From positions 62,001-126,000 of the forward strand of contig JAJYAT010000002.1 of assembly GCA_021779375.1 (NCBI GenBank): DNA of 64,000 nucleotides, given 5' to 3'. The notes beneath the pieces were generated by a model. That model made no database searches. It saw only the letters and a program-made list of their open reading frames with translations, and was not told the origin of the DNA. The translations under genes and the position numbers were made by a program. Positions 49,422 to 58,307 of this stretch are shown in pieces (the stretch's first letter is position 1; each line of letters opens with the position of its first letter). Origin of the DNA: a bacterium (GTDB lineage Bacteria; Patescibacteriota; Gracilibacteria; JAHISY01).

Positions 49422-50216
49422 ATGTCAAAAATTGCAGTCGTTGGCGCGGGCGTGATGGGCAGTGCCATCGTCGCATCACTCATTCGTGAAAAAATTTTCA
49501 CGCCAGCTGAAGTCATCGCGGTCGATGTCAACTGTCGCAAGCTCAGTGTCCTGAAAAAGAAATTTAAAATCAAAACTGAGAATTCGATCAGCGATGCGGC
49601 GACAAAAGTTGATGTGATTTTGCTCGCTGTAAAACCGCAGTCACTTGAATCTTTGTGTGAAAATTTCTCGACTGACAAGCTTGTGATTTCGATTCTCGCG
49701 GGCACGCGCGTCGCGAAGCTGAAGCAGCTGACTGGCTCAGCGAAAATCGTGCGCGTCATGCCAAATACTCCCGCCGCCGTCGGCTGCGGAATTTCCGGCT
49801 GGCACGCGAGTCGACAAGTCGCGAAAAACGAGAAAGTTTTGGTGCGCCAAATCTTGGAAAGTTTCGGCGAACAGGCCGAATTCAAAAATGAAAAAATGCT
49901 CGACGCAGTGACGGCGATTTCCGGCAGCGGTCCGGCGTATTTTTTCGCCTTCGCAGAAGCCCTGGAAAAAGCGGCTCGCAAAATGGGACTCGGTAAAAAC
50001 GCTGCTGCTTTCGTCGGTCAAACTTTTTTTGGCGCGGCGAAATTAGCCGACATCTCGGAAATTCCTTTCGCGAAGCTGCGGGAAAATGTGACTTCGAAAG
50101 GCGGTACGACCGCCGCCGCACTCGCGGTTTTTGAGAAAGCGGGACTTACGAAAATCGTCGAGCACGCGACACTCGCCGCGAAAAAACGCGCGGAAGAATT
50201 GGCGAATGGAAAGTAA
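49422..50216 (+). CDS. proC: pyrroline-5-carboxylate reductase
   Basis: MSKIAVVGAGVMGSAIVASLIREK; VRVMPNTPAAVGCGISGW; AISGSGPAYFFAFAEAL; alternative start 49398 overlaps nnr. Confidence 0.95.
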   Translation: MSKIAVVGAGVMGSAIVASLIREKIFTPAEVIAVDVNCRKLSVLKKKFKIKTENSISDAATKVDVILLAVKPQSLESLCENFSTDKLVISILAGTRVAKLKQLTGSAKIVRVMPNTPAAVGCGISGWHASRQVAKNEKVLVRQILESFGEQAEFKNEKMLDAVTAISGSGPAYFFAFAEALEKAARKMGLGKNAAAFVGQTFFGAAKLADISEIPFAKLRENVTSKGGTTAAALAVFEKAGLTKIVEHATLAAKKRAEELANGK

Positions 50217-50275
50217 AACCTGCGAACGTAGAGAATGAAAATTTTCATTCTGCTAGGAATTTTCCCTCACGGGAA

Positions 50276-50806
50276 TTATTTGTCTTCAGTATTAATTTTC
50301 TCAATTAGCCCAAGATTAACCAATGCTCTTATGCTGTAATCATCCAGCCCAGGAGACCATTCATCCTGATTGTTAAATTTTGCCAATAGCGACTCCAAAT
50401 CATCTGCGCTGAAACTTAAATTAGGATTGAGCGGTACCTCAATACTATTTCCTTTTTTAACAGCAATGGAGATAATGCCATTGAGGGGGTCTTTGTCGAA
50501 AGCGGCTATTGCCGTCAATTGATAACCCTGTTTTTTGAGTAATTTATCAAGAGCAGTTTTGTAGCGAATTACTTCCGGATCATTTTGAGATTCTACTTTT
50601 GGTTTGGTGCTATTTACATCATCTAACAATTTTATCCTTTCTTTAATTTCCTTTTTTTGTATATCGTTTCTTTCGTTGTTGGAAGATATTTCTTTCCCTT
50701 GCGATTGCTGCACTTCAGGACCACCGCCACCTCTAAACACCAACCTCCTTTCTGTTGTAAATGTTTGAGAAGCAAGCAGTGACAATTGCAAGTTTGTATT
50801 TTCCAT
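50276..50806 (-). CDS. hypothetical protein
   Basis: Likely start 50806 (MENTNLQLSLLASQTF). Confidence 0.5.
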   Translation of the reverse strand: MENTNLQLSLLASQTFTTERRLVFRGGGGPEVQQSQGKEISSNNERNDIQKKEIKERIKLLDDVNSTKPKVESQNDPEVIRYKTALDKLLKKQGYQLTAIAAFDKDPLNGIISIAVKKGNSIEVPLNPNLSFSADDLESLLAKFNNQDEWSPGLDDYSIRALVNLGLIEKINTEDK

Positions 50807-51036
50807 TTTATTTTGGTTATTTTTTGCGGTAATTAACTGTTTTGATTTTAGCATAAAACATACTTTTAAGCAAACTGCCTAAAATTTGCTGAGCTTGCTT
50901 GAATTTTGTCACCCCTGCGAAAGCAGGGGACCAAAATAAAAAAGCGCGAGACTGTTTGGATCCCCGCCTGCGCGGGGAAGACAAAGGAAATAAAACAAAA
51001 GGTGTGGCATTTTATAATTGTTTAGCTATATCAAAC

Positions 51037-51062
51037 AAAAAGCCCCCTTGCGGAGGCTTTTT
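51037..51062. terminator. intrinsic terminator hairpin aaaaagcccccttgcggaggcttttt
   Basis: 11-bp stem with one mismatch and flanking A/T runs, downstream of 51084-51626. Confidence 0.8.
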
Positions 51063-51083
51063 CCCACCCTCGAAATTAAATCT

Positions 51084-51626
51084 CTACTCTTCGTCTGTGT
51101 CATTGTTGTGGTCACCGAACATTCCACCATGCCCACCTCTGCCATGTTCGCCACCCATTTCGAATCCCATTCCCATACCGAATCCTGGTCCTTCGATTCC
51201 TAGCTCTTTCTCAATCGCCTGAGCCTGTGTTTTCAAGTTTTGTAAATCTTTCAGTTTGGAGAAATTGTCGGCTGTGATTACTTTGAGAATCGGTGCGTCG
51301 GGATTTTTAGCAGTGATTAATTTGACCCAAGCTGCGTAATCGCCATTTGTAATTGCCGTCTCGAGTGCTGTGCGATCAGCTTCCATCGTGGCTCTGTTGG
51401 TAGCCATCTTGGTGAATTGATCCTCGGTCATCTTGGTATTCCCGGTCGCAGTCTGGAAGGCTGCGAAATCTTTGTTTTCGATGGCCGTCTCAATCGCAGT
51501 CGCTTTGGCTGGATCGAAATTTTTGTCACCCGGACCGGCGAAGCCGCCGAAAGCATAAACCGAAGGAAGCACGATTGCCGAAAGGGTGAGCGCGGAAATC
51601 CCCGCGAGGATAGTCTTGTTTTTCAT
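51084..51626 (-). CDS. secreted protein with Gly/His/Met-rich C-terminal tail
   Basis: Signal peptide MKNKTILAGISALTLSAIVLPSVYA; tail GFGMGMGFEMGGEHGRGGHGGMFGDHNNDTDEE. Confidence 0.7.
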   Translation of the reverse strand: MKNKTILAGISALTLSAIVLPSVYAFGGFAGPGDKNFDPAKATAIETAIENKDFAAFQTATGNTKMTEDQFTKMATNRATMEADRTALETAITNGDYAAWVKLITAKNPDAPILKVITADNFSKLKDLQNLKTQAQAIEKELGIEGPGFGMGMGFEMGGEHGRGGHGGMFGDHNNDTDEE

Positions 51627-51670
51627 TTTTTTGGGGTTAAGAATTGAAAGTTCAAACGCGTTTTCAAAAA

Positions 51671-52396
51671 CTAATACGCGCGCATCGGCATGTTTCTTTC
51701 AAATCTCGCCCGTTCTAATTGCCTGGGATTTTCAGGCAAAATAAAGTCAGCTGTGAAATTAGTATCATCAGTCTTGGTACCGATTGCGCGGATTTTCTCA
51801 CCAACTGTAATCGTGAATTCCGGCGGAATTTTGGCAGTCGCAATATCGACATTCCAGACTGAATTATCGAGTGCATTCAGAATCAAAAGCTTTTCCTCAA
51901 TCGAAAAAACCTCGCCAAAAAGAAAACCCTCTTCGGGATCCATCCACTCGCTCTCGTCAAAATGCGGCGGAAAATTTTGGACGCGCAAAGCGTGCAACTG
52001 TGGCGGCAACGGCGTCGCTAGCAATGAAATTCCACCAGCGATACTCGCGACGAAAATCCCACCCGCGACCGCGAGCACACCGAAACGGTAACCGTGCTTA
52101 GTGTGACGAAAGAGAAAATACGCAAATGCACTGGCAGCCAAAATCGTCGCGAGCCAAAAAATCGGCAAGGTGTGAGTAATGAAATTAATTTGACCGCCCG
52201 GGAAATGTGGCAGCAACTCCCATTCAGCTTCGAATAATTCCGCAGCGAAAGTCCCGACGAAAATCGCCGCAGCCAAAAGCGCAATCAATGCCAGCACCCA
52301 AATGCCGTAGTTTTTGACGAGAAAAAGCGCACGCGAATGCGGCGCCAATTTGCGCTCTTTAATTTCAGCGAGGATTTTTTCAGAAAGTTTCTGCAT
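51671..52396 (-). CDS. three-TM membrane protein, possible anti-sigma factor
   Basis: Directly downstream of the sigma gene; cytosolic N-term then three hydrophobic helices. Confidence 0.6.
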   Translation of the reverse strand: MQKLSEKILAEIKERKLAPHSRALFLVKNYGIWVLALIALLAAAIFVGTFAAELFEAEWELLPHFPGGQINFITHTLPIFWLATILAASAFAYFLFRHTKHGYRFGVLAVAGGIFVASIAGGISLLATPLPPQLHALRVQNFPPHFDESEWMDPEEGFLFGEVFSIEEKLLILNALDNSVWNVDIATAKIPPEFTITVGEKIRAIGTKTDDTNFTADFILPENPRQLERARFERNMPMRAY

Positions 52397-52404
52397 TGCA
52401 AAAA

Positions 52405-52998
52405 TTAAATAAATTTATTGAGAGCCGCTTCTCCTGCTGTGAGCTCAAAAGCCTTTTTGGCACGATGTACGAGCGTAGCGACGCTGCCCATCGGACAATG
52501 CAGAATGTCGGAAATCTCCGCATAATCTTTGGACTCGAGGTAACGCAGAATCAAAATCTCACGATATTTTTGCGGAATTTTTGCGAGAATCGAATGAACG
52601 AAGGCGACCAGAAATTTTTCGTCGGTCGCGGCTGGAATGTCGAGTGTCGATTTCAGCAGCTGCGCAGCTTCAAATGTGTCGAGATTAACTTCTTGCGCGC
52701 GCGCTGATTTTTTGCGCCAATGGCTGATCACTTCATTGTGCGCGATGCGATAAATCCAGCTGCTGAATTTGAGACTGGAGTCGAAGTCGCGCAGATTTTG
52801 GTAAGCCTTGAGAAAAATATTCTGGAGCAGATCCTCACCTTCTTCCCGGGAAATATTGGAAATGCGCAACACATAGCGCAATAGCGGTCGCTCGTACTTC
52901 TCGACAATCTGAGCGTAATCATCGGAATCGGCAAGCGCGAGCCGCACGAGCTCGACGTCCGAATCCAAGTCCGAAATTATCTTTGGGGGTGGAGGCAA
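52405..52998 (-). CDS. ECF-type sigma-70 family RNA polymerase sigma factor
   Basis: YERPLLRYVLRISNISREEGEDLLQNIFLKAYQNLRDFDSSLKFSSWIYRIAHNEVISHWRKKS; KIPQKYREILILRYLESKDYAEISDILHCPMGSVATLVHRAKKAF. Confidence 0.93.
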   Translation of the reverse strand: MPPPPKIISDLDSDVELVRLALADSDDYAQIVEKYERPLLRYVLRISNISREEGEDLLQNIFLKAYQNLRDFDSSLKFSSWIYRIAHNEVISHWRKKSARAQEVNLDTFEAAQLLKSTLDIPAATDEKFLVAFVHSILAKIPQKYREILILRYLESKDYAEISDILHCPMGSVATLVHRAKKAFELTAGEAALNKFI

Positions 52999-53120
52999 TT
53001 TTCGATAGAGATGCTAAAAGAATTATACGCATCCGGACAAATTTTTATTTCACAAACCAAAAGAAAAATGAGTGATTGACCAACAAATAACAGACCCTAA
53101 AAAAATCAGCTAAAACCAGT

Positions 53121-53149
53121 TTGCAATTTTTATCAAATTTTGGTAGAAT
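53121..53149 (+). promoter_or_regulatory. promoter TTGCAA-17-TAGAAT (unit A)
   Basis: TTGCAA 53121-53126, TAGAAT 53144-53149. Confidence 0.65.
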
Positions 53150-53155
53150 AAACAC

Positions 53156-53305
53156 GTTCCTTTACTGAGATTGTCTGATTTGAGATTCGCTCGTCGAATC
53201 AAAAAACTCTCAATCGCACGCCTCTCGATCTCCGGGTCGACCGACGTGATCAGTATCGGAGCCAAAAACAAAAATAGCTCAGCCAAATAGGTCGAGCTAT
53301 TTTTG
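53156..53305 (+). ncRNA. candidate small RNA, paralogue A
   Basis: Own promoter, conserved 5' block, UNCG-capped hairpin, intrinsic terminator; paralogue at 54549. Confidence 0.6.
53271..53305 (+). terminator. AAAATAGCTC-AGCCAAATAGGTC-GAGCTATTTTT
   Basis: 10-bp stem with T run. Confidence 0.85.
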
Positions 53306-53351
53306 CGTAGCGATAAGTTTAAACACTGCAAAATAAGCTAAAATACTCGGG

Positions 53352-54500
53352 ATGTTTTTTGTTGTCATTCTCGGAATCTTATTCGGCATCCACTTCGCCG
53401 TCTACGATTTTTGCGTTCGCGCTTTTTCGATTGAGGACAAAATCGTCCAAGTAAAAATCGCGCTCGGTCTGCTCTTGCTCTTCGCCGGACTGGTGGGATC
53501 GATGATTTTGTCGCGCCTGACGAGTAATTTATTTACGAAAATTGTCAGTGTGAGTTTCGGTGTTTGGTTCGGATTTTTGCTGAATTTGTTTTGGCTGATT
53601 CTCGTCGCCTGGCTCGCGATTGGCGCAGCGCGAATTTTCGGGCAAAGTTTGAATCTTCAATTGTTCGCCCAAATCGTCATCGCCGCGGCGATTCTCTGGT
53701 CGCTCTTCGGCATGTGGAATGTTTTTCATCCGGTCGTGAAAAATATTGAAATCGAGCTCGCCAATTTACCAGCGGAGTGGAAAGGCAAAACAATTGTGCA
53801 GCTTTCCGACGTACATCTCGGCGGAGTTCTAGGTGAAAATTTTTTGCGAAAAATCGTGAATGATGTCAATCAACTCAAACCGGAAATCGTCGTCATCACC
53901 GGCGACCTGCTCGATGGCAGCGCGGATGGATTTGAATCCTATGTCCACCTTCTGGATGAAATTCAAAGCAAACAAGGCGTTTATTTCGTCACCGGCAATC
54001 ACGAGGGTTACCGCGGCATCGCGGATTCCTTGCGGATTTTGCACGGAACCAAAATGCATATTTTGGAGGACGAAATCGTCGACCTATCCGGTCTGCAACT
54101 AATCGGCATTGCCTATCCGCAAATTGGCGAACACAAAAATATCCGCAAAATCATCGCGGACAATCCTGTTTTTGATTCGGCTAAAACAAATATCTTACTG
54201 CTACATTCCCCGACCGGCATCGGCGCGAGCGAAACCAAACGCCAAGATTTGTACTGGAAACCGAATGTGGATTTCACGGACGCGGAAGAACTCGGGATCG
54301 ATTTGCAACTTTCAGGACACACACACGCCGGACAGCTTTTTCCTTTCACGCTTCTCACGAAGTGGATTTACGCTGGCTACGAATACGGCCTACACCGCAT
54401 CGGCAATTTCCAAATTTATATTTCGAGCGGCACAGGCGTCTGGGGACCGACTGAGCGCAACGGCAGTCGTTCTGAGATTGTCGCGATTAAGTTGAGATAG
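53352..54500 (+). CDS. membrane-anchored metallophosphoesterase (YkuE-like)
   Basis: TM helices; VQLSDVHLGG; VVITGDLLDG; VTGNHEGY; LQLSGHTHAGQLFP. Confidence 0.92.
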   Translation: MFFVVILGILFGIHFAVYDFCVRAFSIEDKIVQVKIALGLLLLFAGLVGSMILSRLTSNLFTKIVSVSFGVWFGFLLNLFWLILVAWLAIGAARIFGQSLNLQLFAQIVIAAAILWSLFGMWNVFHPVVKNIEIELANLPAEWKGKTIVQLSDVHLGGVLGENFLRKIVNDVNQLKPEIVVITGDLLDGSADGFESYVHLLDEIQSKQGVYFVTGNHEGYRGIADSLRILHGTKMHILEDEIVDLSGLQLIGIAYPQIGEHKNIRKIIADNPVFDSAKTNILLLHSPTGIGASETKRQDLYWKPNVDFTDAEELGIDLQLSGHTHAGQLFPFTLLTKWIYAGYEYGLHRIGNFQIYISSGTGVWGPTERNGSRSEIVAIKLR

Positions 54501-54513
54501 GCTAAAAACAGTT

Positions 54514-54542
54514 TTGCAATTTTGGTAAAATTTTGGTAAAAT
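54514..54542 (+). promoter_or_regulatory. promoter TTGCAA-17-TAAAAT (unit B)
   Basis: TTGCAA 54514-54519, TAAAAT 54537-54542. Confidence 0.65.
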
Positions 54543-54548
54543 ATACGC

Positions 54549-54697
54549 GTTCCTTTACTGAGATTGTCTGATTTGAAATTCGCTCGTCGAATCAAAAATC
54601 TCTCAATCACTCACTCTTCAATCCTCGGATTGCTGAATGAAATCAGGACTGGAGCCAAAAACAAAAATAGCTCAGCCAAATAGGTCGAGCTATTTTT
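54549..54697 (+). ncRNA. candidate small RNA, paralogue B
   Basis: See paralogue A; lies between convergent metallophosphoesterase and gyrB. Confidence 0.6.
54664..54697 (+). terminator. same terminator as unit A
   Basis: AAAATAGCTCAGCCAAATAGGTCGAGCTATTTTT. Confidence 0.85.
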
Positions 54698-54713
54698 GCG
54701 TAAAGTGCCTAAT

Positions 54714-56702
<1,989 letters not shown>

Positions 56703-56910
56703 TTAGGTAAGGAGTAAGTTGTAAGTCGTAAGGAATAAGTTTTAAGTAGTAAGAAAAAACTTAGTCCTTATTTCTTAATATTTAATTCTTTTCCCGCGGA
56801 TTTTAGCAGACGAGCAAGCTCGCGCCAATTTCAGCCGATTTTTGGCATAGTTTTCAATTTGACCAGCCAAAAAAAGAATTTAGAATCCTGTCAAATCTCC
56901 CAAATATCTC

Positions 56911-57363
56911 ATGAACGACTCGAACAGCCTAGCGCCAATCACAATCAAAAAACTTACAAAAGCGGAGGTCCCCGATTTTTTTGCAGTGATAAAAAAACTG
57001 CGAGCGCAGCTCAGCAAAAAAGATCTGCAAAAACGACTAACAGCAATCGAACGTATTCCTGGGCACTATTTTTGGGGTGCGATTCGCGGCAATCAAAAAG
57101 TCGGTTTTTGTCACGCCAGCATCAATGTCAATCTCTCGCCTGGTGGCAAGGATATTTATCTGAATGATTTAATCGTCGCGGAAAACGACCGCAGTGGCGG
57201 TGTCGGTAGCAAACTACTCGGTGAAGTCCAAAAAATCGCCAAGCTCAAAGGGTGCAAACGCATCCTCGTCACTGTCCGCACCGACAACCTGACCGCGTTG
57301 AATTTTTATCGTAAAAAAGGTTTTGGGGAGGGATACGGAATCAGGCTTGCCAAAGAATCATAA
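56911..57363 (+). CDS. GNAT family N-acetyltransferase
   Basis: YLNDLIVAENDRSGGVGSKLLGEVQKIAKLKGCKRILVTVRTDNLTALNFYRKKGF. Confidence 0.9.
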   Translation: MNDSNSLAPITIKKLTKAEVPDFFAVIKKLRAQLSKKDLQKRLTAIERIPGHYFWGAIRGNQKVGFCHASINVNLSPGGKDIYLNDLIVAENDRSGGVGSKLLGEVQKIAKLKGCKRILVTVRTDNLTALNFYRKKGFGEGYGIRLAKES

Positions 57364-57422
57364 AATCAGCGATTTCTTTTCGTGACAGCAATGAGTAAAA
57401 TTGCGCCGTCCTAACTTTTTCA

Positions 57423-58307
57423 ATGCAGCTCATCCTGATCAATGATGGTCACAACCCTGAATGCGAGGAACTAATCGTGGCAGCTGCAAAGAAAAGGAAA
57501 ATTCCAGTCGAAGTCACCAACTCAAAAATTCGCACTGAATCGGTCGCACCTTTTCGACCTATCAAAAAAACACTGGTCTACCGCATCGCGACTAATCCTA
57601 TTGAGGAATTACTCGAAACAATTTTGATTGGCAAGGGCGCAGTCTCGCTGCGCGAGGCAGATCAGCTTACGAATAAGTCTGATTTAAATCTCTTAATGAT
57701 GCGCAAGGGCAAGTTGCGCATGAATATGTTTTTGAGCAAAAACAAAATCGCCACGCCTGAAACAATTTTTTCTAATGCGACTGATTCTAAAAGCTTAAAA
57801 GAGATTATCAAAAAGCTCGGCCTCCCGCTGCTGATCAAGACGCTCGACAGCAGCCGCGGCAAAGGCGTGATCCTGATTGATTCTTTTTTTGGGCTGCGCT
57901 CCTCGGTCGAAGCCTGGCAAGAAAAAGAAATCCCTTTTCTCTACCAAAAATTTATTCAGGAAGCGACAGGCAGCCACATCCGCGCCATTGTTTTGGACGG
58001 TCGCCTAATCTGCGCTTACCGAAAATCAGTCCCCAAGCAATCTGATTTTCGTTCGAATGCTTCGGGCGGACTGTCGGCCAATAAACTAATCAAGCTCAGC
58101 CCGACGACTGAAAAATTGGCGATTGAGACAGTCAACGCTTCCGGTCTGGCTTTCGGCGGGGTGGATTTGATTAAATTAAATCAACAAGATTATTGCGTCG
58201 CCGAAGTGAATTTCCCTTTCAATTTCGCCCGCAGTGCCAAGCTCGGAAAATTCGATGTAGCTGGAAAAATGCTCGATTACCTCGTCGCGAAAGCGCAGCG
58301 AAGCTGA
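57423..58307 (+). CDS. RimK-like ATP-grasp ligase
   Basis: IKKLGLPLLIKTLDSSRGKGVILIDS; IRAIVLDGRLICAYRKS; GLAFGGVDLIKLNQQDYCVAEVNFPFNF. Confidence 0.9.
   Translation: MQLILINDGHNPECEELIVAAAKKRKIPVEVTNSKIRTESVAPFRPIKKTLVYRIATNPIEELLETILIGKGAVSLREADQLTNKSDLNLLMMRKGKLRMNMFLSKNKIATPETIFSNATDSKSLKEIIKKLGLPLLIKTLDSSRGKGVILIDSFFGLRSSVEAWQEKEIPFLYQKFIQEATGSHIRAIVLDGRLICAYRKSVPKQSDFRSNASGGLSANKLIKLSPTTEKLAIETVNASGLAFGGVDLIKLNQQDYCVAEVNFPFNFARSAKLGKFDVAGKMLDYLVAKAQRS

Follow-up and report, generated by a model that had tools for sequence, protein, structure and literature searches.

What do two similar promoter-to-terminator units, standing on either side of a single metallophosphoesterase gene, encode, and does their position next to this gene have a meaning? 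The units, A and B, belong to a Peribacteria-like CPR bacterium, for which a metagenome-assembled genome of Candidatus Peribacteraceae was the closest named relative detected. The window, i.e. the whole stretch of 64,000 nt that was analysed, corresponds to G000:C14:62001-126000 within a 1.07-Mb genome. The first-pass annotation had taken A and B for an undescribed small RNA family with a variable targeting region between constant ends.

Layout of units A and B

Both units were found where they had been placed, with the following features:

53121-53149, plus strand: promoter of unit A (−35 TTGCAA at 53121-53126, 17-nt spacer, extended −10 TGG-TAGAAT, 53144-53149)
53156-53305, plus strand: small RNA unit A, from the start G 7 nt after the −10 box through the terminator
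53156-53168, plus strand: 5' strand of the basal stem of A (P1 GUUCC, UU, P2 UACUGA)
53169-53215, plus strand: arm P3 of A (P3a GAUUG/CAAUC, a pyrimidine internal loop and the variable hairpin P3b)
53217-53248, plus strand: arm P4 of A, a variable covarying hairpin
53250-53262, plus strand: 3' strand of the basal stem of A (UCAGUA, UC, GGAGC)
53269-53305, plus strand: intrinsic terminator of A, a bidirectional hairpin with A and U tracts
54514-54542, plus strand: promoter of unit B (TTGCAA at 54514-54519, 17 nt, TGG-TAAAAT, 54537-54542)
54549-54698, plus strand: small RNA unit B, convergent with gyrB
54562-54608, plus strand: arm P3 of B
54610-54641, plus strand: arm P4 of B
54662-54698, plus strand: terminator hairpin of B, bidirectional
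54714-56702, minus strand: gyrB

The promoters TTGCAA-17-TA(G/A)AAT are present in both units, and both −10 boxes are preceded by TG, i.e. the promoters are of the extended −10, sigma-70 type by their consensus. The bodies of A and B both start at a G 7 nt after the −10 box, are each 108 nt long and end with GAGCC, which is followed by an A-rich linker and the terminator hairpin, the arms of which carry A and U tracts in both units. The covariance model R2 matched A at 53156-53263 (109.8 bits) and B at 54549-54656 (111.5 bits). The 28-nt block shared by the 5' ends occurs twice in the window, as against zero occurrences expected from 100 shuffles, and the hairpins CGATC-TCCG-GGTCG (A) and CAATC-CTCG-GATTG (B) proposed for the diverged middle were both recovered. 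The length of 43 nt ascribed to this middle is correct only if the shared CTCTCAATC is excluded; the full stretch between AAAAA and GAGCC has 53 nt. Its equal length holds for A versus B but not for all other copies, the long bodies ranging from 97 to 114 nt.

The gene between the units, 46 nt downstream of A, encodes a calcineurin-like phosphoesterase (PF00149, E 6.7e-16), in agreement with the original assignment, and B does end before the convergent gyrB. The flanking of the phosphoesterase gene by two units is nevertheless incidental, since three further copies are present elsewhere in the genome. In the interval corresponding to window positions 52405-54714, the related genome G002 lacks the phosphoesterase gene and has just one RNA between a sigma factor gene and gyrB. 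A short intergenic stretch at 50817-51222 of the window, the translation of which yields repeat-like peptides from either strand (SSPRRRGSK and TPAKAGDQ..CLDPRLRGED), is similar to dispersed intergenic repeats of many bacteria.

Fold of the long and short forms

Eight long bodies (A to E, that of G002 and those at the gyrB sites of G001 and G003) fold independently into the same Y shape, in which the closing stem P1, a small internal loop and P2 lead to a three-way junction with P3 and P4, followed by the terminator; P3 is again composed of P3a (GAUUG/CAAUC), a pyrimidine internal loop and a variable P3b. The z-scores of the cores were −3.3 (A), −3.5 (B), −7.1 (C), −5.1 (D), −1.3 (E), −3.9 (G002), −4.2 (G001) and −2.05 (G003), which means that E and the G003 sequence, taken alone, fold little better than shuffled sequences. 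In the alignment of the eight long sequences (A6), 86.9% of cells are paired and 11 pairs show changes on both sides. Its covariation score of 0.294 was matched by none of 500 shuffles, and pairing fell to 23-49% when the partner was slid by 1-3 columns, in controls which cover eight to thirteen related sequences and are not corrected for phylogeny.

This fold decides against the idea that constant ends enclose a variable targeting region. Most of the diverged middle is made up of the helices P3b and P4, i.e. of junction arms (chiefly P4 together with the 3' side of P3), and compensatory changes preserve their pairs; the constant 5' end itself supplies a strand of the closing stem. What varies in the middle is structural drift and not a guide or target-matching region. 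Moreover, the arm loops are mostly of tetraloop size (4-5 nt), and so they leave little unpaired sequence for a target.

The family also includes a short form, the bodies of which are single interrupted hairpins of 40-59 nt, as opposed to the three-way junction of the 97-114-nt long bodies. Unit E of the host genome (long) and the copies on C61 of G001 and C14 of G003 (both short) lie in the same interval between tRNA-Leu(caa) and the fumarase gene (identified by Pfam in G000 only, and by similarity of the protein start in G001 and G003), and owing to this orthologous position the two forms represent the same gene. The basal stem is common to both forms in a single 13-position register, in which three pairs have changed in a compensatory manner: position 4 from C-G to U-A, position 5 from C-G to A-U and position 6 from G-C to A-U. 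Positions 7-10 read UUAC in each of the 13 distinct sequences, even though some of the strand opposite is free or unpaired, and a pyrimidine internal loop accompanies the basal stem in most copies. That one gene kept its closing stem and lost a whole arm between sister species points to where the function lies.

Copies, relatives and genomic context

The host genome carries five copies in total, A and B being joined by:

G000:C5:104842, minus strand: unit C
G000:C14:170997, minus strand: unit D
G000:C14:50002, minus strand: unit E

All five share the identical 21-nt 5' end GUUCCUUUACUGAGAUUGUCU, and with it the 5' strand of the basal stem, while their arms diverge. C and D are nearly identical from the −35 box to the terminator and have unrelated flanks; similarly, the copies on C14 and C35 of G003 are near-identical from promoter to terminator within unrelated flanks. 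Two other candidates of the host genome were rejected: a possible sixth copy at G000:C6:65097-65311 is not a unit, and G000:C1:2748-2882 has a promoter-like start without the basal stem.

Further members were sought with the 5'-end pattern GTTCNNTTACNGAGAT, which gave three matches in G001 (C17, C61 and C114) and two in G003 (C14 and C35), all with the same promoter. The model R3, built from the members found by the pattern, added one in G004 (C161), which appears to sit close downstream of 5S rRNA. Covariance and pattern searches taken together yielded 13 distinct sequences at 14 loci, with one to five dispersed copies in each of the five genomes of the genus, and the promoter architecture of A and B recurs in nearly all other copies. 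The same searches detected no member in the sister genus, the single other genus of the family, and none was found in the 347 other genomes among 353 genomes of the class scanned with R2, R3 and the promoter pattern, where the stricter filters applied in scoring mean that divergent relatives could be missed. The exact 21-mer had one match in 84,980 species genomes, which was the sister genome.

Outside the genus, the scans of the class gave weak matches only. Promoter-pattern matches occurred across the class at about 0.3 per genome, and the six checked had no RNA body. R2 gave one weak match (G284, E 0.046), and R3 gave matches with E values of 0.003-0.05, two of which were inspected and found to be unrelated sequence. 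In viral contigs, two 18-mer matches were checked and had neither the RNA body nor an R2 match; twelve 16-mer matches were also recorded there. The plasmids and phages searched contained no family match. A covariance search of positions 50000-58000 against Rfam 15 gave no match up to E=1, and at eight other loci only tRNAs and sub-threshold matches were detected, none of them on the RNA units. The literature searched on small and non-coding RNAs of Peregrinibacteria, Patescibacteria and CPR, in which subscription papers were partially covered, contained nothing on this family. The proposal of an undescribed small RNA family is supported by the lack of an Rfam match, by the promoters and terminators of the units and by their homologues in relatives.

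As to the context, the RNA converges on gyrB in G000 (unit B), G001, G002 and G003. The phosphoesterase gene is absent from the gyrB locus of G002 and present at those of G001 and G003, which have one RNA only, on the gyrB side; G002 could have lost the gene by recombination between flanking direct repeats of the RNA, of the kind that A and B represent. Unit E and its orthologues lie just upstream of the fumarase gene, a short-form copy of G003 lies upstream of what appears to be a hisB-like gene, and the remaining copies have a lipoprotein-like gene downstream or point towards unrelated genes or the region of the 5S rRNA. Each copy has a promoter and an intrinsic terminator of its own, predicted from consensus and fold, and the convergent and unrelated contexts indicate independence from the downstream gene.

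About nine distinct RNA sites can be distinguished; at four of them a tRNA gene is no more than ~400 nt away, and another is close to 5S rRNA, which may reflect a hotspot. Downstream of tRNA-Val(cac), G003 and G001 carry apparent partial copies of the tRNA 3' end, and G000 and G002 have other sequence; this site is a variable spot adjoining a tRNA.

Possible mode of action and comparison with known RNAs

Judged from sequence, the family is most likely a new small RNA, structured, standalone and restricted to one lineage, that acts in trans, as suggested by the promoter, the terminator, the preserved fold, the dispersed copies and the lack of any coding capacity seen. With somewhat less than even confidence, we propose more specifically that A and B are paralogues within a genus-restricted family which acts in trans through a protein-bound basal stem. 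The RNA would be transcribed constitutively and stay folded, presenting the basal stem (GUUYNNUUAC, facing the pyrimidine internal loop in most copies) to a putative protein partner, which would be titrated by the RNA or for which the RNA would serve as a scaffold. The arms P3b and P4 would mainly stabilise or space the stem and could for this reason be lost, as in the short form; dosage would be set by the copy number.

The main rival is pairing with mRNAs, since the 5' strand is identical within the host genome. Freed from the basal stem, this strand would be the seed of a trans-acting antisense RNA, perhaps acting near ribosome-binding sites. The 21 nt kept in five copies with diverged arms would fit a seed, multicopy small RNAs with shared seeds are a known theme, and the first 8 nt include CCUUU, complementary to the Shine-Dalgarno sequence AAAGG. 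However, almost every minimum-energy fold has most of the 5' strand in pairs, and the genus as a whole keeps only UUAC unchanged, so that no conserved contiguous seed of at least 6 nt is evident. Sister species have CAGU, CAAU or UAGU in place of CCUU, and the anti-Shine-Dalgarno reading was set aside for this reason. We thus consider antisense action possible but rather doubtful, and favour recognition of the basal stem by a protein in view of the short loops and the pairing of the 5' strand. Conservation of this strand could also reflect base-pairing targets or a DNA-level constraint near the start site. A cis-acting leader (riboswitch or attenuator), the terminator of which would control the downstream gene, might be suspected from the position of A before the phosphoesterase gene, of E and its orthologues before the fumarase gene and of the G003 short form before the putative hisB. 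Yet unit B, like its orthologues in G001, G002 and G003, runs towards the convergent gyrB, and further copies point at other genes or at the region of the 5S rRNA. There was no sign of a conserved anti-terminator alternative to the fold, and the downstream genes have no common member or function, so that a leader role is unsupported and very unlikely.

The near-identity of C with D and of the two G003 copies, which extends exactly from promoter to terminator within unrelated flanks, together with the several sites adjoining tRNA or 5S rRNA genes, would also fit a mobile or selfish RNA cassette of ~150-200 bp, copied without benefit to the host. Such an element is improbable: neither a transposase nor a terminal inverted repeat nor a target duplication came to light, both the gyrB-end site and the fumarase site are kept between species, and the compensatory changes that maintain the structure imply selection on the RNA; in the one empty-site comparison tried, the sequences were too diverged to read. 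A combined reading, in which the cassette multiplies and relocates in a minimal CPR genome and its basal stem binds a conserved protein, is only a little less improbable. If it were true, this would be a lineage-specific RNA regulator that switches between three-way junction and hairpin with only the closing stem kept. A divergent 6S RNA or other housekeeping RNA would share the strong promoter, the paired 5' and 3' ends and the size range. It is the most remote of these readings, since a 6S-like RNA distinct from the units occurs in each of the family's six genomes and the units have a three-way junction, several copies, no large central bubble and no Rfam match; RF00013 in particular did not match them, its weak match in the genus being another locus.

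In its general organization, the family proposed here as a protein-binding RNA resembles several known systems. Qrr, LhrC and OmrA/B are multicopy trans-acting bacterial small RNAs, and the new family likewise consists of a number of near-identical intergenic genes that carry a promoter and an intrinsic terminator of their own and have a conserved block in common. In contrast to them, it shows no conserved unpaired seed, its 5' block is locked in a stem, its body varies from a junction to a simple hairpin, and it is confined to one CPR genus. CsrB/RsmY and 6S RNA, the latter as an RNA polymerase decoy, are decoy or sponge RNAs that titrate a protein. Like these, the new RNA is standalone and structured with a recurring motif and no coding capacity seen, but this motif is the basal stem with UUAC and the pyrimidine loop, and neither GGA-loop repeats nor an open-promoter-like bubble are present. 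The likeness to 6S RNA (RF00013) is limited to the paired ends and the strong housekeeping-type promoter; the junction or short hairpin with small internal loops is unlike the long 6S hairpin with its central bubble, and the 6S-like gene is separate in the same genomes.

In the literature searched, the coverage of which was incomplete, we came across no account of a small regulatory RNA of CPR bacteria (Patescibacteria). For the present family there are now covariance models, a structure that can be tested and coordinates within five genomes. The 6S-like gene, conserved in all six genomes of the family (e.g. G000:C12:140347-140602 and G001:C66:2723-2880), scored 29.3 bits (G001) and 27.1 bits (G004) with RF00013, below the cut-off of 46.4; the G000 copy has an extra insertion of ~30 nt and was not scored as 6S. 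This gene is a candidate diverged 6S RNA of CPR bacteria.
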